NCBI GenBank assembly: GCA_019637955.1
Contig: JAHBUS010000001.1
Location: forward strand, 1-64,000
Direction of reading: 5' to 3'
DNA from: Pseudobdellovibrionaceae bacterium
GTDB lineage: Bacteria; Bdellovibrionota; Bdellovibrionia; Bdellovibrionales; Bdellovibrionaceae
DNA length: 64,000 nt
This document shows positions 23,833-33,450 of the stretch, piece after piece. The translations under genes were made by a program, and so were the position numbers. Numbering within the stretch: position 1 is the first letter of the stretch; each line of letters begins with the position of its first letter. The notes beneath the pieces are model-generated. The model ran no database searches and was not told where the DNA came from. It worked only from the letters and a program-made list of their open reading frames with translations.

Positions 23833-24133
23833 TTAACCCCTTTCCACCTGTTAAAATCGGCTCAAAGGGAGACGACCCTTGAGTCCAGAGGCGCAAAATT
23901 GGACCCCGAACTGGACCATCTTGAAGAACAAAATCGCACATAAAAAATATCTGCCCGCATAAGGTCTGGTTCCCGCGACTTTTTATCAAGATTCATCAGC
24001 GAGTGAATCAGGCTGATACGGTCCAAAGTTAAGAAATCCGCCTAAACTCCGATATATAGATGAAAACGCTCGGGTATTTTTCTCAACTTCGATTCGGCAA
24101 CATATATGCACGTTGGCGGAGGAGGATTTTTTG
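23833..24133. other. Divergent intergenic region between FecR-type gene and DGR target
   Basis: Holds the start signals of both genes. A small hairpin AAGGG/CCCTT lies near 23870, and ATTCA/TGAAT near 23993. One TTCGGCAA site at 24093-24100 matches the hexamer of the phased array at 29249-29374. No clear -35/-10 pair was found. Confidence 0.45.
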
Positions 24134-27100
24134 ATGACTAAAACTTCCATTTTAAGCCACGCGCTCGCGCGCGTTCCAACGTACATCTTGTCCGCTTCAA
24201 CTTTATTTTTCTTTTCTGGTTGCGGTTGGCTTCAACAAATCTCTGAACTGGATCGCGAAGTCACATTTTCTGCAACCATCACTCCCGCACAAATATACGA
24301 GGGACAGCAAGCAAAAGTTCAAGTGAATCTGAGCAAAAACTACGAGGGCGAGAAAATCATCTCCTGGACCCTTTACGAAGAAGGTACCCAGTCACTCGCC
24401 ACAACTTCTGATTTCGTCGAAGTTCAAGGCTCTGTCTCCCTCTCAGGAACGAGCGCCAAGGATTTTACAATTACATCGAAGCCTGGAAGTATCGCTTCCG
24501 GCAGCAAGCAATTCAAAGTCGTTCTAACGACTGAAAACTCCTCTCAATCCTTCAACATCTCTGTCCTGGATTCAGGAACGACCAGCACCATCTCGATCAC
24601 GTCGGCGCTAAACTCCGGCTACGTCAATAACGCCAACAAAGCGAACTACACTGTAAGCGGCGTCTGCTCGACGGCTGGAAGCGACGTCAACTTAGTTGCC
24701 GAGATCGGCGGCCAAAGCACAAGTGGCGTTGTCCCATGCTCAGTCAGCCTCGACTGGTCAATCAATTTGAATTTTTCCGCCGTTACGAACGATGGTCCCG
24801 TAACGCTCTCCGCGACTCATGCTGGAGGCGGCGGAACTCTTGGTGCGACCAGCCTACAAATCCAGAAGGACGTCGCAGCACCCACGGTCGCGTTCTCAAG
24901 TCCTGGCGCAATGAGCGCCATCAACGCTAGTATGGCTTCAAGTTTTGCGATCTCTGGAACCTGTTCGGAATACACCCGCATTGTTTCGGCGACGCTAACT
25001 TCGAGCGGCGGTGGAACACCTGTCGTCGCTTCTGGAGTTTGTCTGGATATTCTTGGCAGCGGAGAATGGAGCACCACCGCGAACATTTCGTCGCTGACCG
25101 ACGGAACGATTACGGCGACGCTCAGTCACTCGGACGCTGCCGGAAACACGTCTTCTGGAGTGCGCGCATTCACCAAAGATACTTTGATCCCAACTCTTTC
25201 GATCACGTCACCAGCTTCGCTTGCCACTTACAACGCAAGCACTTATCAGGCTCTTGCCATTGGCGGCGCCTGTAATAAAAACGGCGCTACCGTTACGCTT
25301 ACGGGCGACGTTAGCGGAACTTTGACCGCGACTTGCAACGGTACGAGCTATTCCTTTTCCGGCCTCACGCTGACCGGCGCAAACGGCGTTCGCGCAGTGA
25401 CAGCCACAATTAGCGATACGGCTGGAAACCAAACTCAAACAAGCATCAATCTTCAAAAAGACATTCTCGTACCGACGCTCGCGATCACGTCTCCCGCGAG
25501 TATGACGATGTATAATGCAAGCACCTACCAGACGCTTGCGATCACCGGCACTTGTAACAAAAACGGTGCGACCGTCGCGCTAACGGGCGACGTCAGCGGC
25601 ACCTTGAGCGCAAGCTGCAACGGAACGAACTTCTCATTTTCTGGTTTGACTCTTACGGGGGCTACAGGAACACGAACGATCACTGCCACAATCAGCGATT
25701 CAGCGGGTAACTCCTCGCAAGTGAACCTGAACCTGCAAAAAGACATCGTTGTTCCGACTTTGGCGATTTCGTCGCCCGCATCTTTGACGACTTTCATTGC
25801 GAATAACTATACGTCCGTTGCCATCAACGGAACTTGTAATAAAAACGGTGCGACCGTTACGCTCACAGGCGATGTCAGTGGCACACTGACGGATACCTGT
25901 AACGGGACAAACTATTCGTTCACGGGTCTAACTCTCACTGGGACCGACGGTTTGAAGTCCGTGACGGCCACTATCGCGGACTCCGCGGGCAACTCTTCTC
26001 AGGTGAATTTGAATCTCCAGAAGGACATCAGCGTTCCGACGGCAATCTTGAGTGGAGCGCCGGCGCCTGGATCATATAGCAATGCCACGAGCTTGACCGT
26101 GACTGTCGGGGGCGCCGATGTCAGTGAGTATCTGTATAAATTCGGAGATGGCACAACGGATTGCACGAATGCTACGGGTTACTCGGCCGCCACCGGAATC
26201 GCCACTACGATTTCCATTAACGCGGGAACGATGGGCGCTGATGGTGCGAAGAAGCTCTGTGTTCGCGCGAAAGATGCCAGTGGCAACATTCAGTCATTGG
26301 CCTCTGCTACCGAGGTCGGCTGGACGAAGGACACTGCGCTTCCGACGCTGGCGTTTACTTCTCCTGCCGCTGGATCTTACGTCAACCTCGCGACTCAATC
26401 GAGCTTCGCGGTGAGCGGAACTTGCTCTGAGGTTGGAACAAGCAACGTGAACATCGACGGCGACATCACGGCTCCCGTACAAGTCAACTGCGTTGCGGGC
26501 GCTCCGAATACTTGGACCGCGAACGTAAATTTCTCGACGGCCTCGAACGGCCCTGTGTTCCTTCTTATCTCGCAGACGGATGCGGCTGGAAACGTCGGAA
26601 GCCGTACCCGAGCATTCGTCAAAGACGCCGTGAATCCGACGATTGGATGGACCACTCCTTCTGCTGGAGCCTTCATCAATAACGCCAATAAAGCTGCTTT
26701 CGCCGTTACCGGGACTTGCTCGGACTATAGCGCGACTCCGAACGTGGCACTGACGAGCACGGCTCTTACTTCGACTGTGAATGTCGCTTGCGACGGCGCG
26801 AACTGGACAGCAAACCTTGCCTTCAACAACGGCGATGAGGCTGTCACCGTGCGCGCGACGATTACCGACGCCGCAGGAAATTCGACTTACAGCGACCGCA
26901 ATTTCTCGAAAGACACGAATAACCCAGTGCTTGCGATCACGTCGCCTTCAGCGGGAAGCTATGTCAATGACGCGAACAAAGCTGCGTTCGCCGTCAGCGG
27001 CACTTGCTCAGATGTAGGAACGAACAACGTCGTTGTTTCCGGTTCCGCGACCGCGACTGTGAACTGCGTCTCAGGCAGCCCGAACACTTGGTCGGCGAAT

Positions 27101-29125
27101 TTGAACTTCACGGCGGCCAGCGACGGCGCGCTTTCGATCACGGTCACGCACACGGATGCCGCTGGAAACACCCATGCTCCGACGCTCGCGCTGAATAAAG
27201 ATGTGGTGGCGCCGACGACCGGCTGGACGCTTCCTCTCGCGGCGGCGTGTGCATCGAATTCTTCTGGGACAACTTTCGCAGTCTCAGGCACTTGCACGAA
27301 TGGCGACGGAAACGTGACCTTGAGCTCCGCTCAACTCGGCACTCCGGTAGCGACTTCTTGCACTGGCGGAACCTGGAGCGCAACTCTGAACCTGAACGTG
27401 ACGGCACTTGCGGATCTTGCATCATTCAGCGTTCAAGCGAGCCAGACGGATACGGCCGGAAATACCGGCGCCCTCTCTCGTAGCTTCAAGAAAATTGGAA
27501 GCGCGCCTACGGTGATTCTTGGCGGTTGGGACGACATTTATTCCGTCGGACCTAAAACATACGCGTCCAATCCTTCAGAAACGACTCCAAACTCTGAGCC
27601 AGGACAAGTCCGCATCTCTTGGAAAGAGTGGCCTGCTGGAAATACCTGTATGCCTGAAGCGGTCAAAGTGTACCGCGCAAGCATCGCCGGTGGCGGTGGC
27701 TCTCTGGTCTCGAACATGGATTTTCCGAGCGGTATTCCTGCCAACGTCAGAAGTTTCACCGACAACACGCTCCAAGGCGCGACTATCGGCACGGTCGGAT
27801 CGCCGACCGACTTCGGCAAAGGCTGGTACTACACTCTCAGAGTCACCATCGCGGGCAGCGACTACAACGTAACGTCACCGACGGAGATTGCAGAGGCGCG
27901 CGTGGTTGCACCGCCTGTGAACATGGCCCTCGTGCATCGCTGGATAGCGAACCAAGAGGTCTGCGGGCTGATGAGCCGCACACCGGACGCCGCCAATCAC
28001 TACCGTTGCAGCTATTCCGGCTGGGGTAAGATCACCGGCAACTACTACGATTTGGAGAAAGACCTCCTCGTGGATCGCCACGAACTCGGCTGTAACTTCA
28101 CTTCCAGTTGCGGAGCTGGAGGCAATCAGCCGTGCTTGGCTTCGGTTTTCTCAACGACCAATCCGGCCGGAGCCGGTATCGCAGGTGCGGACGGACAGGT
28201 TTTCTATAACGACGACGGCACCGATGCTCAATGCTTCATCAAGATCGCTGGCACATGGCGCGCGGCGAATACCGCTACAGCGACCGTAACTCTTCCGAAC
28301 CGCTTGGCGATGTCAACGGCGATGGCGGGTAAACCGCCACTCACTCGTATTGACCAACCCAAGTCTTACGATAACTGTCAGGCTTACTCCGTAACTCTCG
28401 ACCAAGTGGCGGGCTTCACTTCGGCCAACAAACGCTTACTGCGTAACAAAGAATGGAAAGCTGCTGCGGCTTGGTCGCCGACACTCACGGATGCTCAGAT
28501 CGTGACACTTGAAAACGGCGGCGCCTTGGGCCGCTGTAACACCTCCAACGCGCACGGACTGATTGCGACGGATCGTGGCTGGGTCGGCACTTACGCCTTC
28601 TATAGCGGCTCTCAGACGGCCACAGCGTCTTGCCAATCGCGCTACGGCATTCAGGACATGGTGGGCAACGTCTGGGAATGGACTTCGGACCAGCTCGGAA
28701 GCTGTTCGGGCGCCGGTTCGACGTGCGTGGGCGTCACGTCCGCTGTGGATGCTGGGAACACCGACATGAACGGCTTTCCGTTCGATCACGTCGCTGCCCC
28801 CGGAAACGGACTCGTTTCGGAATGGACCATCGAAAGCAAATCTTACGGAGCCAACTATTTTTCGGTGCCGCTCGGTATCCCGATGATTACGAACGACGGC
28901 GGAAATGCCATCAGCATCGACTCTTGGCTGACTCCCACCAACAAATTCCACGGAGATCGGTTCTACCTCTATCCTACGAATGGCAACGTCTCTCGCGGCC
29001 TCTTCGTGGGTGGCTCCTGGGGCAACGGCACGGTCAGCGGGCGCTGGGCTTCTGCTTGGAGCAATACGCCGGCGTCGTCGGGCTACAACATCGGGCTGCG
29101 CTGCGCGGTCCCCCTCAGTTATTAG
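24134..29125 (+). CDS. DGR target: giant lipoprotein with Ig-like repeats and FGE/C-type-lectin domain
   Basis: A 1663-residue surface lipoprotein. The signal peptide ends in FFFSGC (lipid-attached Cys30). Residues about 150-1150 are bacterial Ig-like modules, each ending in a DAAGN or DSAGN turn and LQKD or FTKD linker. From about 1265 there is a formylglycine-generating-enzyme-type C-type-lectin fold, with MVGNVWEWTSD at about 1510 and the terminal GGSW ... GRWAS ... GLRCAVPLS. The final 43 residues are the variable region. Start ATG 24134 follows GGAGGAGG; the frame extends to 24113. Like the Legionella DGR lipoprotein, it probably displays a diversified ligand-binding tip on the cell surface. 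Confidence 0.9.
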   Translation: MTKTSILSHALARVPTYILSASTLFFFSGCGWLQQISELDREVTFSATITPAQIYEGQQAKVQVNLSKNYEGEKIISWTLYEEGTQSLATTSDFVEVQGSVSLSGTSAKDFTITSKPGSIASGSKQFKVVLTTENSSQSFNISVLDSGTTSTISITSALNSGYVNNANKANYTVSGVCSTAGSDVNLVAEIGGQSTSGVVPCSVSLDWSINLNFSAVTNDGPVTLSATHAGGGGTLGATSLQIQKDVAAPTVAFSSPGAMSAINASMASSFAISGTCSEYTRIVSATLTSSGGGTPVVASGVCLDILGSGEWSTTANISSLTDGTITATLSHSDAAGNTSSGVRAFTKDTLIPTLSITSPASLATYNASTYQALAIGGACNKNGATVTLTGDVSGTLTATCNGTSYSFSGLTLTGANGVRAVTATISDTAGNQTQTSINLQKDILVPTLAITSPASMTMYNASTYQTLAITGTCNKNGATVALTGDVSGTLSASCNGTNFSFSGLTLTGATGTRTITATISDSAGNSSQVNLNLQKDIVVPTLAISSPASLTTFIANNYTSVAINGTCNKNGATVTLTGDVSGTLTDTCNGTNYSFTGLTLTGTDGLKSVTATIADSAGNSSQVNLNLQKDISVPTAILSGAPAPGSYSNATSLTVTVGGADVSEYLYKFGDGTTDCTNATGYSAATGIATTISINAGTMGADGAKKLCVRAKDASGNIQSLASATEVGWTKDTALPTLAFTSPAAGSYVNLATQSSFAVSGTCSEVGTSNVNIDGDITAPVQVNCVAGAPNTWTANVNFSTASNGPVFLLISQTDAAGNVGSRTRAFVKDAVNPTIGWTTPSAGAFINNANKAAFAVTGTCSDYSATPNVALTSTALTSTVNVACDGANWTANLAFNNGDEAVTVRATITDAAGNSTYSDRNFSKDTNNPVLAITSPSAGSYVNDANKAAFAVSGTCSDVGTNNVVVSGSATATVNCVSGSPNTWSANLNFTAASDGALSITVTHTDAAGNTHAPTLALNKDVVAPTTGWTLPLAAACASNSSGTTFAVSGTCTNGDGNVTLSSAQLGTPVATSCTGGTWSATLNLNVTALADLASFSVQASQTDTAGNTGALSRSFKKIGSAPTVILGGWDDIYSVGPKTYASNPSETTPNSEPGQVRISWKEWPAGNTCMPEAVKVYRASIAGGGGSLVSNMDFPSGIPANVRSFTDNTLQGATIGTVGSPTDFGKGWYYTLRVTIAGSDYNVTSPTEIAEARVVAPPVNMALVHRWIANQEVCGLMSRTPDAANHYRCSYSGWGKITGNYYDLEKDLLVDRHELGCNFTSSCGAGGNQPCLASVFSTTNPAGAGIAGADGQVFYNDDGTDAQCFIKIAGTWRAANTATATVTLPNRLAMSTAMAGKPPLTRIDQPKSYDNCQAYSVTLDQVAGFTSANKRLLRNKEWKAAAAWSPTLTDAQIVTLENGGALGRCNTSNAHGLIATDRGWVGTYAFYSGSQTATASCQSRYGIQDMVGNVWEWTSDQLGSCSGAGSTCVGVTSAVDAGNTDMNGFPFDHVAAPGNGLVSEWTIESKSYGANYFSVPLGIPMITNDGGNAISIDSWLTPTNKFHGDRFYLYPTNGNVSRGLFVGGSWGNGTVSGRWASAWSNTPASSGYNIGLRCAVPLSY
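25187..26032 (+). repeat. Three exact-length 282-bp tandem repeats
   Basis: Three consecutive 94-residue Ig-like modules start at 25187, 25469 and 25751, each exactly 282 bp. Each holds the segment GTCNKNGATV (first copy GACNKNGATV), then LTGDVSGTL, then FSGLTLTG or FTGLTLTG. The similarity is much higher than among the other modules, pointing to recent duplication and possible length change by recombination. Confidence 0.85.
28991..29119 (+). repeat. DGR variable region (VR)
   Basis: 129 bp at the 3' end of the target gene. Aligned without gaps to template unit 1 (31488-31616) it differs at 11 positions, all of which are adenine in unit 1 and changed here to G (5), T (5) or C (1). They change Tyr to Phe, four Asn codons and three Thr codons. 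The G/C-rich 3' end GCTGCGCTGCGCGGTCCCC is the initiation-of-mutagenic-homing (IMH) type sequence and is identical in VR and template. Confidence 0.95.
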
Positions 29126-29165
29126 CGTTAGCTCGGCGGCCCCGAAGGGGTTGCGGAGCTAATGC
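29125..29165 (+). promoter_or_regulatory. Hairpin/cruciform just after the VR (homing element)
   Basis: GCGTTAGCTC pairs with GAGCTAATGC (one G-T pair), closed by CCCC/GGGG around GAA. It begins 5 bp after the VR end. DGRs such as that of Bordetella phage BPP-1 carry a hairpin a few bases downstream of the IMH that promotes target recognition; this is its likely equivalent. None of the six templates has it. Confidence 0.75.
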
Positions 29166-29205: not shown

Positions 29206-29248
29206 CTCCCTTTCCCCTATTGGGTAGAGCATCAAAGATTGAGATTTT

Positions 29249-29374
29249 CGGCAAAGTACGGCAACTTCCGGCAAACCCTGCCGGTGTTTGCCGGAAATTT
29301 TTTTTGATCGGCAAATCTTGCCGAAGAAGGCGTATTTTTGCCGAAGATTGCCGGACATTGCCGAGCAACGGCAA
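29249..29374. promoter_or_regulatory. Helically phased CGGCAA/TTGCCG site array
   Basis: The hexamer occurs at 29249, 29259, 29269, 29309 and 29369 as CGGCAA, and at 29288, 29318, 29338, 29348 and 29358 as TTGCCG, with a one-base variant at 29278. Steps are 9-11 bp or multiples, so sites face one side of the helix. The array ends 17 bp before the HTH-like accessory gene. A related TTCGGCAA lies 40 bp upstream of the target-gene start. It is probably an operator for cooperative binding. Confidence 0.7.
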
Positions 29375-29390
29375 GGTTGTGGAGATGACG

Positions 29391-30035
29391 ATGAGATGGC
29401 TTACCGCACAAGAACTTTCAAAGATCGCTAAGAAATCCCAGGACGCGGAGAAAACCGTTCCTGAACGCACAATCCGACACATGGCGCTGCAAAAGAAGTT
29501 CGCCACCAAGAAGGAAGGCAAACACTGGCTAATTGATCCAGCGTCTGCTCTTCGTGCGGGACTCTATATCTCGCCCGAAAATTTAGAATCGCTTCAGTTA
29601 AGAAAAACGGAACCAGCCGCGTCGAGCGACCCCACCCCGACCGAACAAGGAAGTTCAGCCTCCGAAGCAACTTCTAAAGATCCCAAGAAATATAAGATGC
29701 TGGGCGAACTCGGAGTTTACAACGAACTGAAGTCCCTTTATCGGGAAAAGCTCTCTGACAAAGAAGGTCCGGTCAAAGAAGCGATTAAACAAACTCTCTA
29801 TCACTTAGGTCTTGGCTTTTACGAGTATCCGCAGGTAAATAAGGCCGAATACTTCAAAAGAGCACGAAAGCATTTGGTAGGCGCCATCGTCGAAGACGAT
29901 CTGGTGTCAACCAGTCGGAGTGACTGGCGCGATCAACTCGAAAATTCCATTATGCCCGGAATAATAGGTCTGATCCGCAAACAAGAGGGCGGGAAACGTG
30001 GCCGGGGACAACCTAAAGTTAAAGGGAAAGATTGA
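29391..30035 (+). CDS. DGR-linked accessory protein with N-terminal HTH-like domain
   Basis: About 214 residues. The first about 60 (WLTAQELSKIAKKSQDAEKT, then ERTIRHMALQKKF) look like a helix-turn-helix followed by a short wing; a low-complexity linker follows (SSDPTPTEQGSSASEATS), then a helical C-terminal domain with YNELKSLYREKLSDKE. It sits between target and avd, overlaps avd by 38 bp, and follows the phased site array. Inference: a regulator of the DGR operon. ATG 29391 has GGAG six bases upstream; 29385 is an alternative. Confidence 0.7.
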   Translation: MRWLTAQELSKIAKKSQDAEKTVPERTIRHMALQKKFATKKEGKHWLIDPASALRAGLYISPENLESLQLRKTEPAASSDPTPTEQGSSASEATSKDPKKYKMLGELGVYNELKSLYREKLSDKEGPVKEAIKQTLYHLGLGFYEYPQVNKAEYFKRARKHLVGAIVEDDLVSTSRSDWRDQLENSIMPGIIGLIRKQEGGKRGRGQPKVKGKD

Positions 30036-30387
30036 GCAGTTCTACCAAGGACTGATTCCGATTCTTCAAAAATTTCCAAAAACTCAACGATACACTCTCG
30101 CGGAGAATATCGAAAAGGAAACTCTGACCTGCGTGAATCTGATCTTCGAGGCGGAGTACGTCAAAAATCGGCGGCTTGAAGCCTTGAAAGTTCTCAGAAC
30201 CAAACTCCATGTCATCACATTTTTGATTCGTGTCTCCTCAAAGAGCGGCTTCATCAAGGAAGGCGTTTACGAGCAGTTGACTCGTGACACAACAGAGATG
30301 GGAAAAATCACGAGTGGCTGGATCAAGAATGAAGAATCGTCAAATAAAACCCGAACTGAGAAACCAACCCAATCCGCAGAAGTATGA
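29998..30387 (+). CDS. avd: Avd-like DGR accessory variability determinant
   Basis: A 129-residue four-helix-bundle protein. Features of the Avd/bAvd family are seen: YQGLIPILQKFPKTQRYTLA near the N-terminus, the IEKETLTCVNLIFEAEY helix, and the C-terminal TEMGKITSGWIK. Avd forms a pentamer that binds the reverse transcriptase and template RNA and is needed for mutagenic cDNA synthesis. GTG start inside the previous gene; the stop overlaps the RT start in ATGA. Confidence 0.9.
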   Translation: MAGDNLKLKGKIEQFYQGLIPILQKFPKTQRYTLAENIEKETLTCVNLIFEAEYVKNRRLEALKVLRTKLHVITFLIRVSSKSGFIKEGVYEQLTRDTTEMGKITSGWIKNEESSNKTRTEKPTQSAEV

Positions 30388-31436
30388 GAAAGCGCAAAGC
30401 CTACGGTATTTTTGATCCCATGACCGAGTTTTCAAATCTCGTTCAAGCCTTCTACAAGGCATCCAAGGGCAAAAAGAATCGTCTGGCCGTTCTTTCATTT
30501 CAGGCGAATCTCGAAGACAACATTTTTGATATTCAAGAGCGCCTCCGAGGTGAGACGTATCCATTCGGCCCCTACCGATCATTTTACGTCACCGAACCTA
30601 AGCTCCGGCTGATCGAGTCGGCGTGTTTTCAAGATCGCGTTGTCCACCATGCAATGTATGAGCGACTGGAACCGCTTTTCGACCCGCAGTTCTACGAATA
30701 CTCCTTTGCTTGTCGCTCAGGCCGTGGAACTCACGCCGCCATGCTCACGCTGGGCGATTGGATTCGTCGCTCACGACTTCCGATATTTTTGAAATGCGAC
30801 ATCCGTCGATACTTCACGAGCATCGACCGCGACAAACTGCTCGAAATCCTGAAGCGATCCATTGGCGACGATAAGATGCTCAGGCTGTTAGAAAAACTGA
30901 TCCTCTCAGCTCCGCGGACAGGAATTCCGATCGGCAATCTCACTTCGCAACTTCTAGCGAATATATACCTGAACGAGCTCGATCAACTGGTAAAGAGACA
31001 ACTTCGAGTGAAGTATTATATCAGGTACATGGACGACTTCATCTTGCTTACGGAAAGCCCAGAAGCCGCGCGCCGATTGAAAGAAACGATTCGGGAATTC
31101 GTTGAAGATGAGCTGAAGCTCGAACTTAGCCCGGAAAAAGTGCGGATCGGCCACGTCAATGAAGGCGTTCCGTTTGTCGGATATTGCCAACGCCCGAAAG
31201 AGGTTCGTGTACGTGGCGCGGCCTTACGCCGAATGCGGAAGAAAGTCCGCAAGGCTTACCGCAAATCTTTTGGACGTAACTACGATATGCCGGAAGGATT
31301 CTGGGAATCGAAGAAAACGAAACGCACTGCTTTTTATGCAAGCTGGTCGTCTTATGTCGGTCAGACGAAGTACGCGAAAAACGCAGATTACCTTCAAGAA
31401 AAATTGGTCAGAGAGTTAGAGATTCTTCCTCCTTAG
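30384..31436 (+). CDS. DGR reverse transcriptase
   Basis: A 350-residue RT that copies the template RNA with adenine-specific errors. The palm motifs are LKCDIRRYFTSID, GIPIGNLTSQLLANIYLNELD (the IGxxxSQ signature in place of the QGxxxSP of group II introns), YIRYMDDFILL (catalytic Asp pair) and VPFVGYC. A short C-terminal thumb follows and no maturase or endonuclease domain is present, as usual for DGR RTs. It is translationally coupled to avd and followed 52 bp later by template unit 1. Confidence 0.97.
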   Translation: MRKRKAYGIFDPMTEFSNLVQAFYKASKGKKNRLAVLSFQANLEDNIFDIQERLRGETYPFGPYRSFYVTEPKLRLIESACFQDRVVHHAMYERLEPLFDPQFYEYSFACRSGRGTHAAMLTLGDWIRRSRLPIFLKCDIRRYFTSIDRDKLLEILKRSIGDDKMLRLLEKLILSAPRTGIPIGNLTSQLLANIYLNELDQLVKRQLRVKYYIRYMDDFILLTESPEAARRLKETIREFVEDELKLELSPEKVRIGHVNEGVPFVGYCQRPKEVRVRGAALRRMRKKVRKAYRKSFGRNYDMPEGFWESKKTKRTAFYASWSSYVGQTKYAKNADYLQEKLVRELEILPP

Positions 31437-31487: not shown

Positions 31488-31770
31488 TCTCGCGGCCTCT
31501 ACGTGGGTGGCTCCTGGGGCAACGGCACGAACAGCGGGCGCTGGGCTTCTAATTGGAACAATACACCGACGACGACGGGCAACAACATCGGGCTGCGCTG
31601 CGCGGTCCCCCTCAGTCTCGATCCGTCAGCCAGAGTCCCTGAATTGAGAACTCAGGGAGCGCGCTGGATAGAAACAAAGGCTTCCTTTCTCATGTCGGCA
31701 GGATACCGCGCCGACGAAGTTTGTTTTCACGGGCCAGCCACTTGATTCGGGTGCCTGGTCCGTTTTTATA
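31488..31770 (+). ncRNA. DGR template unit 1: active template repeat (TR) plus structured tail
   Basis: The 129-nt repeat (31488-31616) is the template of the present VR: identical except at 11 adenines. Variable codons are AAC, AAT and ACG. The tail has a hairpin TCCCTGA/TCAGGGA (31636-31658), a GATAGAAACAA segment (31667), a second hairpin TCGGC/GCCGA (31695-31715), and an intrinsic terminator ACGGGCCAG/CTGGTCCGT followed by TTTTT (31729-31767). The tail is the likely spacer RNA needed for priming by RT-Avd. Confidence 0.93.
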
Positions 31771-31820
31771 TTCAAAGCGTGGGAATTGAAGGTCTCGCAC
31801 TTGCTTTTTGGACGCGTGTA

Positions 31821-32103
31821 AAATGCGGCCTCTTCGTGGGTGGCACTTGGTGGGATGGCTCGAACGCCGGGCGCTGGGCTTCCTATTGGTATGCCACACC
31901 GGAGACGGCTTGGCAGAACAACGGGCTGCGCTGCGCGGTCCCCCTCAGTCTCAATCAACGGCCAGAGTCTTCGAGCTGAACCCTCGGAGAGCGCGCCGGA
32001 TAGAAACAAGACTTTCATTTTCCAGGTCGGAGCCTTCCTTGGCACTGACGAAGCAGCCTTCACGAACCAGCCGCTTGATTCGGGCGCCTGGTTCGTTTTT
32101 ATA
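31821..32103 (+). ncRNA. DGR template-like unit 2
   Basis: Same layout as unit 1 and the same repeat length (129 nt, 31821-31949). In the VR frame it reads without stops and keeps the fold residues (GLFVGG, GRWAS, GLRCAVPLS). The variable codons are, however, mostly TGG, GAT, TAT, GCC, GAG and CAG rather than AAY, so it looks like an already diversified sequence. Its hairpin is TCTTCGAG/CTCGGAGA (31968-31990), then GATAGAAACAAG and terminator ACGAACCAG/CTGGTTCGT plus T5 (32062-32100). Confidence 0.85.
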
Positions 32104-32158
32104 TTGAGGCATCGGAATAGGAAGTCTCCGACTTGTTGACGGTTGCGCTATTAAGAGG

Positions 32159-32437
32159 TCTCGCGGCCTCTTCGTGGGTGGCAGTTGGAACGAAGGCTCG
32201 AACACCGGGCGCTGGGCTTCCAACTGGAGATATTTACCCACGAATACGTTCAACAATGTCGGGCCGCGATGCGCGGTCCCCCTCAGTCTCGGTCCAAGGC
32301 CAGAGTCTCTGAACCTGAAACTTCAGAGAGCGCGCCGGACAGAAACAATGACTTCTTCGCCCGTATCAGCGCCGCTGCGCCGATTAAGTTTTTAGGAGAA
32401 CCAGCCACTTGATTCGGGTGCCTGGTTCGTTTTTATA
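32159..32437 (+). ncRNA. DGR template-like unit 3
   Basis: A 129-nt repeat (32159-32287), open in the VR frame, with intermediate adenine content (AAC GAA, AAC ACC, AAC, AGA TAT, ACG AAT ACG, AAC AAT). One unusual change, GGGCCGCGA, replaces the otherwise invariant GGGCTGCGC. The tail hairpin is TCTCTGA/TCAGAGA, a second hairpin GCGC-CGCT-GCGC follows, and the terminator GAACCAG/CTGGTTC plus TTTTT ends the unit (32398-32434). Confidence 0.83.
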
Positions 32438-32481
32438 TTGCTCTGTGGGTAGCGGGAGTCTGCAACTCATGAAGATCGCGT

Positions 32482-32760
32482 GATTGCGGCCTCTTCGTGG
32501 GTGGCTCTTGGGCCGGACCCTGGGAAGGTGGGCGCTGGAGTTCCTATTGGAATCAACCTACGACGGCCATCTGGAACAGCTTCGGTCTGCGCTGCGCGGT
32601 CCCCCTCAGTCTCGATCTACACGGCCAGAGTCTCTGACCTGAAACCTCAGAGAGAGTGCTGATAGAAACAAGGCTTCGGCTACCCAATCAGCGCCGCTGC
32701 GCCGATAAAGTTTTTTTGACGAACCAGCCGCTTGATTCGGGTGCCTGGTTCGTTTTTATA
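32482..32760 (+). ncRNA. DGR template-like unit 4
   Basis: A 129-nt repeat (32482-32610), open in the VR frame. Variable codons are largely non-adenine (GCC GGA CCC TGG GAA GGT; CAA CCT), so it is VR-like. The tail repeats the TCTCTGA/TCAGAGA hairpin, GATAGAAACAAG, the GCGC-CGCT-GCGC hairpin and terminator ACGAACCAG/CTGGTTCGT plus T5 (32719-32757). Confidence 0.83.
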
Positions 32761-32819
32761 CTGACGAGCTTTCGGAAATAAGGGGTCTTACTTTTGTTGG
32801 TCGGTTGTGGTCCTGGTTG

Positions 32820-33106
32820 GATCGCGGCCTCATCGTGGGTGGCACTTGGAATAACAGCTCGAACAACGGGCGCTGGGCTTCTAATTGGAACAATGCGCCG
32901 ACGAACACGAACAACAACATCGGGCTGCGCTGCGCGGTCCCCCTCAGTCTCGATCTACGCGGCCAGAGTCTCTGACCTGAAACCTCAGAGAGAGCGCCGG
33001 ATAGAAACCAGGCTCCTTTTTTCCGTGTCAGTTCTTGTCTTGTGAGGGCTGATGAATGTAGTTTTCAGGTCGGCTGCCCGGCATCGGGCACCCGATCTGT
33101 TTTTTA
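32820..33106 (+). ncRNA. DGR template unit 5: second adenine-rich template
   Basis: A 129-nt repeat (32820-32948) with the strongest template character: the variable codons are AAT AAC AGC, AAC AAC, AAT, AAC AAT, and ACG AAC ACG AAC AAC AAC ATC. It is not the source of the current VR, because ACT, TCG and GCG codons differ from the VR at non-adenine positions. The first hairpin is kept; the second half of the tail differs and ends in another terminator, AGGTCGG/CCGATCT plus T6 (33067-33106). Confidence 0.85.
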
Positions 33107-33174
33107 TCCACCGATAGAATTCAGAGAAGGAAAATAGAGTCTTCATTCATTGCTTGCGCTCGCTTTCGCTGTCG

Positions 33175-33450
33175 TCTCGCGGCCTCTTCGTGGGTGGCTC
33201 GCGTGGCGACGGCTCTAACGGCGGGCGCTGGGCTTCGTAAGCTGGGAGGTCTGCAACGTGAGTCCTGCAACGGTCTGCGCTGCGCGGTCCCCCTCAGTCT
33301 CGATCAACAAGGCCAGAGTCCCAGAGCTTCAAAATTCTGAGAGTGCGCCTGACAGAAACAAGACTTCTTTTTCCTTATCGGCGTTACCGCGCCGATAAAG
33401 CGTTCCTATGGGGGTGGCCACTCGAACACGGGTGCCCACCTTCATTCTTC
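33175..33450 (+). ncRNA. DGR template-like unit 6 (damaged)
   Basis: The repeat (33175-33298) is 124 nt: a net 5-nt loss in the middle and a TAA break the VR frame, so homing from it would truncate the target. The 5' and 3' ends, including the IMH segment, are intact. The tail keeps a hairpin TCCCAGA/TCTGAGA with one mismatch, GACAGAAACAAG, an ATCGGCG-type hairpin and a terminator-like GGTGG/CCACC stem with a weak T-tract. Confidence 0.75.

Follow-up and report, generated by a model that had tools for sequence, protein, structure and literature searches.

The window analysed here is a stretch of 64,000 nucleotides from a Pseudobdellovibrionaceae bacterium (contig JAHBUS010000001.1, positions 1 to 64,000) and it holds a complete diversity-generating retroelement (DGR), all on the forward strand: a target gene with its variable repeat (VR), a hairpin after the VR, an accessory protein (Avd), a reverse transcriptase (RT) and six tandem template-like units. 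The target gene (24113..29125) encodes a protein of 1670 aa with Ig-like (Big_13) repeats and a C-terminal FGE-sulfatase-like domain of the C-type-lectin type which ends in the VR (28988..29119, 91% identical to unit 1). Pfam matches were Big_13 (7e-16) and FGE-sulfatase (1.9e-11), the NCBIfam match was Ca_tandemer (2e-34), and AlphaFold modelling of the target domain on a five-row alignment gave a mean pLDDT of 29.5. The avd gene (29998..30387) matched bAvd PF22296 (1e-14, 55 bits against a cut-off of 40) and also DivGenRetAVD NF033474 at 1.4e-19, which is below the cut-off of that model. The RT (30384..31436, 350 aa) matched RVT_1 (1.4e-23), and its closest solved structure was PDB 8ub7 (2.4e-54). 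The locus thus combines a DGR-type RT and an Avd with a VR that ends a C-type-lectin-like target, a post-VR hairpin and, as described below, template repeat (TR) to VR changes confined to adenines. A further ORF of 271 aa at 29220-30035 on the same strand, between the target gene and avd, had no Pfam match and could belong to the cassette or act as a regulator.

An inverted repeat 3' of the VR (29125..29165) has the potential to form a hairpin of 10+8 bp, although its energy z-score of -1.7 is weak taken alone. In BPP-1 a hairpin/cruciform after the VR is needed on the recipient for homing (PMC3240598). The repeat is not present in the six units, which have a different 3' sequence, so that recipient and donors carry distinct marks. 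The BPP-1 DGR (mtd, avd, TR, brt) resembles the present one in its RT (34% identity to brt), its Avd, the adenine-specific change from TR to VR, a C-terminal VR in a lectin-type protein, a post-VR hairpin and a structured RNA after the TR. BPP-1 differs in having one TR, located between avd and brt, whereas the present DGR has its six units behind the RT.

The units start at 31488, 31821, 32159, 32482, 32820 and 33175, with spacings of 333, 338, 323, 338 and 355 bp. Recomputed coordinates bore out the starts and the 323-355 bp spacing given in the earlier note, as well as its description of 129-nt repeats in the VR frame (124 nt in unit 6), each followed by a conserved structured tail. Unit 1 (31488..31768) consists of the TR that was the source of the present VR (31488-31616) and a structured tail with terminator (31629-31768). 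Template-like repeats and tails were found at 31821-31949 and 31961-32101 (138.7 bits) in unit 2 (31821..32101), at 32159-32287 and 32299-32434 in unit 3 (32159..32434), at 32482-32610 and 32624-32757 in unit 4 (32482..32757), and at 32820-32948 and 32962-33105 in unit 5 (32820..33105), which is the richest in adenine (30 A). The repeats of units 1-5 are 129 nt each, in the VR frame and free of stops and indels. Unit 6 (33175..33446) has a frameshifted template-like repeat of 124 nt (33175-33298) with indels and in-frame stops, followed by a tail (33312-33446) whose stem is without a T-tract; this unit is probably degenerate and is not usable as a template for full-length protein. Unit-against-unit alignments extended for approximately 890-1,590 nt at 69-73%, the likeness spanning whole units. 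When the whole 3.77-Mb genome was searched, the VR end TGCGCGGTCCCCCTCAGT was mismatch-free only in the VR and the six units.

A covariance model of the tail was searched against 369 genomes of the phylum. Matches were obtained to the six tails of the array, to one tail per single-unit locus in two genomes (G038, and G029 with two loci), weakly to G240, and strongly (84 bits) to a seventh tail at bases 17-150 of another contig of the same genome, C8 (L167 1-160, the start of that contig). The six unit tails and the C8 tail shared three stems, with 96% of cells paired, and 18 of the 32 pairs had changed on both sides; on every measure, none of 500 shuffles scored as high. Because the structure was taken from this same alignment, and the shuffles preserve column make-up but not relatedness, the cells-paired figure is biased upward. 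Sliding the partner by one column reduced pairing from 96% to 40-44% and both-side changes from 18 to 2, and the count of both-side changes is the stronger evidence of the two. An Rfam search gave no DGR RNA family and a single chance match. The intrinsic terminator or terminator-like stem that the earlier note had assigned to every unit was upheld with qualifications: a stem is present in all six, and a T-tract follows it in units 1-5 but not in unit 6. A plain terminator scan taken alone found 6 where 3.1 were expected, which is not significant. No sigma-70-like promoter was found in the array by consensus scan. As a terminator-like stem ends each unit and no promoter was recognised, the first unit may usually dominate by position, and with T-tracts after units 1-5, units 2-5 may be silent.

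Comparison of the VR with each unit identified its source. Over 129 nt there were 11 differences between the VR and unit 1, each on a unit-1 adenine (11 of 24), while none of the other 105 bases had changed (Fisher p 9e-10); over 132 nt there were 12 mismatches, again all on unit-1 adenines. Differences from units 2, 3, 4 and 5 numbered 34, 33, 40 and 25, respectively, with 22, 17, 28 and 6 at non-adenine positions, which excludes these units as the source of the present VR. Units 2-5 also gave small Fisher values, because the variable codons are rich in adenine. The present VR derives from unit 1 alone and, within this array, unit 1 is the only demonstrated donor, on the basis of one VR allele in one genome.

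The divergence of units 2-5 from the VR was concentrated in the core of the repeat. Unit 2 differed from the VR at 0 of 61 frame bases and 30 of 64 core bases, unit 3 at 2/61 and 31/64, unit 4 at 3/61 and 34/64, and unit 5 at 1/61 and 22/64. Mean mutual identity among units 1-5 was 94-96% in the frame segments and 58% in the cores, and only 3 of 19 constant codons showed any synonymous change. The linkers between units required gaps in every pairwise alignment. The translations of units 2-5 all follow GL.VGG.W...GRW.S.W...P......G.RCAVPLS and differ from one another between its constant parts, and the nine codons changed in the VR all fall within the 27 codons that vary among units 2-5 (p 0.008). 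More than one unit is intact and in frame (units 1-5), the RNA structure is kept in each, and units 1-5 still encode different versions of one protein tip.

This pattern bears on the possibility that the array is one working template and its relics, in which copies of the unit arose by duplication, expression is confined to unit 1, and the silent units 2-6 are slowly decaying. A VR written wholly from unit 1 agrees with such a history, as do the indels, stops and missing T-tract of unit 6, the orphan seventh tail at a contig edge, the empty promoter scan, and a TR-less relic behind the single working template of a related locus (L045; G162:C92, 7479-7648 of the oriented locus), where the second unit consists of a TR end and tail only. 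However, the cores and linkers of units 2-5 have diverged greatly, yet these units remain in frame with 58-61 of the 61 frame bases unchanged, and compensatory change has preserved all the hairpins. It is precisely the homing ends, the frame and the stems that have been spared, a selectivity not expected of neutral decay, and we consider relics an unlikely explanation, though one to be taken seriously.

The content of the cores was also compared with what would be expected if units 2-5 were former VRs which had been captured into the array as an archive of old tips, to be written back on demand. Units 2, 3 and 4 are poorer in adenines (19, 24 and 17 against 30 in unit 5) and at variable sites carry fixed codons for Trp, Tyr, Glu and Pro, as captured VRs might. 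From unit 5 to units 2 and 4, the changes show a slight preference for adenines (p 0.048 and 0.064, uncorrected). Over 20 comparisons, however, there was no convincing adenine bias in the differences between units, indicating that the units were not derived from one another by DGR mutagenic copying. Moreover, units 2-4 contain codons such as TGG which adenine mutagenesis of AAY cannot reach, and the units are without the recipient hairpin. An archive of this kind is improbable.

Contig C8 begins 16 bases before the seventh tail, the edge lying just past the expected end of a template repeat. No RT or target was found beside this tail, and a comparison of contig ends revealed no other end that supplied the missing part of the unit; the assembly gap ahead of the tail may hold a second array or a stray unit. 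Matches on contigs C11 (29 nt at 4e-4) and C10 (an 18-mer, 2 mismatches, embedded in unrelated sequence) were weak and were dismissed. The assembled genome, which is 99.94% complete, contains a single RT, a single Avd and a single target. Some DGRs are reported to combine several VRs with more than one TR (PMC6642488), and units 2-5 might by that precedent serve other VRs on this or another replicon. Against this, the VR end (units aside) and the target domain each occurred once in the genome, with no other target found, and templates for several targets are a very improbable reading of the array.

A search of related genomes for the same array, suggested in the earlier note as a check, gave a mixed outcome. 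With a unit as query on 60 relatives, the array was matched in this genome only, and a tandem array of two units was found at another locus of the phylum (L051, below); in most loci within the phylum the template is single. The four closest DGRs (L032, L033, L034 and L035; RT 49-52% identical) have a homologous target, a similar RT, a TR behind the RT and the same tail anatomy with three stems, but one unit only. Their single TR is most like unit 5 (72%, compared with 63% for unit 1). The simplest history would be that one A-rich template was ancestral, was multiplied in this lineage after the split, and had its cores replaced later. Runs of N take the place of the VR in L032 (from about 2355 onward) and L034 (from about 11955 downward), as if population variation had broken the assembly. 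All 53 TR-bearing DGR loci of other phyla gave no extra template homologue near the TR, save for a doubtful segment in L115, and among 64 TR-bearing viral loci an array was found in one phage only, present twice. These counts were made by blastn (E 1e-5), which misses strongly divergent templates, and are therefore lower bounds. The DGR set was gathered by similarity to this RT rather than at random. At locus L050 a repeat with 20 mismatches, of which 7 at A, was left out of the array count. Relatives of the window array were sought among viral contigs, and those of the phage array among phage records, by pattern and by similarity, and none emerged beyond the two phage loci.

The two further arrays show sequence patterns that differ in which unit wrote the VR. 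L051 (G149:C50; 10434-11031 of the oriented locus) resembles the present locus in its tandem copies of a complete unit behind the RT, with cores that differ, but it has two units, 92% alike, and the second was the writer. At each of the nine positions separating the units, seven of which are non-adenine in unit 1, the VR has the base of unit 2, and unit 2 has 7 mismatches to the VR, 5 of them at adenines. The phage array (L253 3803-4852, and L254; IMGVR_UViG_3300022753_000313 and 3300024270_000379 in IMG/VR) likewise has tandem in-frame template-like units, seven in number, with constant frames, different cores and one target. It differs from the present array in being of unrelated sequence, with units of about 150 bp located between target and RT. 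Between its VR and unit 6 there are 11 differences, each on an adenine, while the other units show 27-44 differences and need gaps, and the sixth unit was thus the writer. Over 9.7 kb, L253 and L254 differ at three positions only, all in the VR opposite template adenines, which indicates that the phage DGR is active with its array unchanged. In a relative of this phage (RT 89% identical) unit 7 remains in frame at 94% identity, and the unit-6 core is 69% identical compared with 87% for the adjoining linker. Unused units are thus retained, and the replacement of cores can outpace change in the sequence beside them. The first unit of L253 (3803) has few adenines and resembles a mutated VR outside any target gene. 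From these alignments a template which is not the first can evidently be the writer, namely unit 2 of 2 in L051 and unit 6 of 7 in the phage; VRs written from units of different number were seen across different arrays, including unit 1 in the present one.

Taken together, the best explanation for units 2-5 is that they are probably maintained as a bank of alternative templates. The earlier note had proposed such a bank of six. Constant frames, homing ends, covarying tails and different cores support it for units 2-5, although only unit 1 has been shown to write the VR, and the frameshifted unit 6 offers no usable template for a full-length protein. Several points count against a bank. The broken unit 6 and the orphan seventh tail show that decay does occur, the derivation of both phage VR alleles from one unit fits a single fixed writer, and gene conversion instead of use could have kept the frames alike.

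In the mechanism we propose, the template RNA gene would have been multiplied into a tandem array in which each unit specifies a separate DGR RNA of template repeat, two-hairpin tail and terminator-like stem. The two-hairpin tail would recruit RT-Avd and prime cDNA synthesis; in BPP-1 an adenine within the structured spacer primes cDNA (PMC12875486). Units 2-5 would be alternative templates for one target, with homing ends and frame in common and different core codons, and cDNA from any unit with intact ends could replace the VR, bringing in a new scaffold together with adenine randomisation. In BPP-1, engineered TRs with a foreign interior home if their ends match (PMC3240598). Unit 1 is the current writer and units 2-5 would be a maintained reserve, of which we infer that they are transcribed. 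Switching might occur by read-through, from promoters of their own, or by recombination between units, where the conserved frames would let another core move to the front. Both the use of units 2-5 in this species and their switching are putative, as read from the array.

Silent-cassette antigenic variation, such as pilS/pilE and vlsE, also provides alternative donor segments for one expressed site. The likeness lies in a bank of donors for a single site, with use of several donors putative here and unit 1 the sole demonstrated one; the difference is that the donor route here would be one-way mutagenic reverse transcription. No report of tandem template arrays was found in the accessible papers searched, and the nearest statement puts the share of multi-VR DGRs with more than one TR at approximately a fifth (PMC6642488). 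The 'multiple TRs' of Treponema denticola were rejected as a precedent since they are between-strain variants.

Independent arrays occur both in a second lineage of the phylum and in an unrelated phage, which suggests that they represent a strategy and are no accident. We put forward tentatively, at somewhat less than an even chance, that template arrays recur in DGRs as a diversifier with two tiers. Adenine mutagenesis would vary residues around a scaffold, and the choice or swapping of units would change the scaffold and bring in residues out of reach of adenine mutagenesis. Exchange of cores would be quicker than change in neutral sequence, with frames and RNA stems held constant. A single-template DGR can explore only the neighbourhood of one scaffold, and the codons of its template fix which residues vary. 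An in-frame template bank, if real, would remove this single-scaffold limit, and how templates originate and are replaced, a question still open in DGR evolution, would become directly testable.
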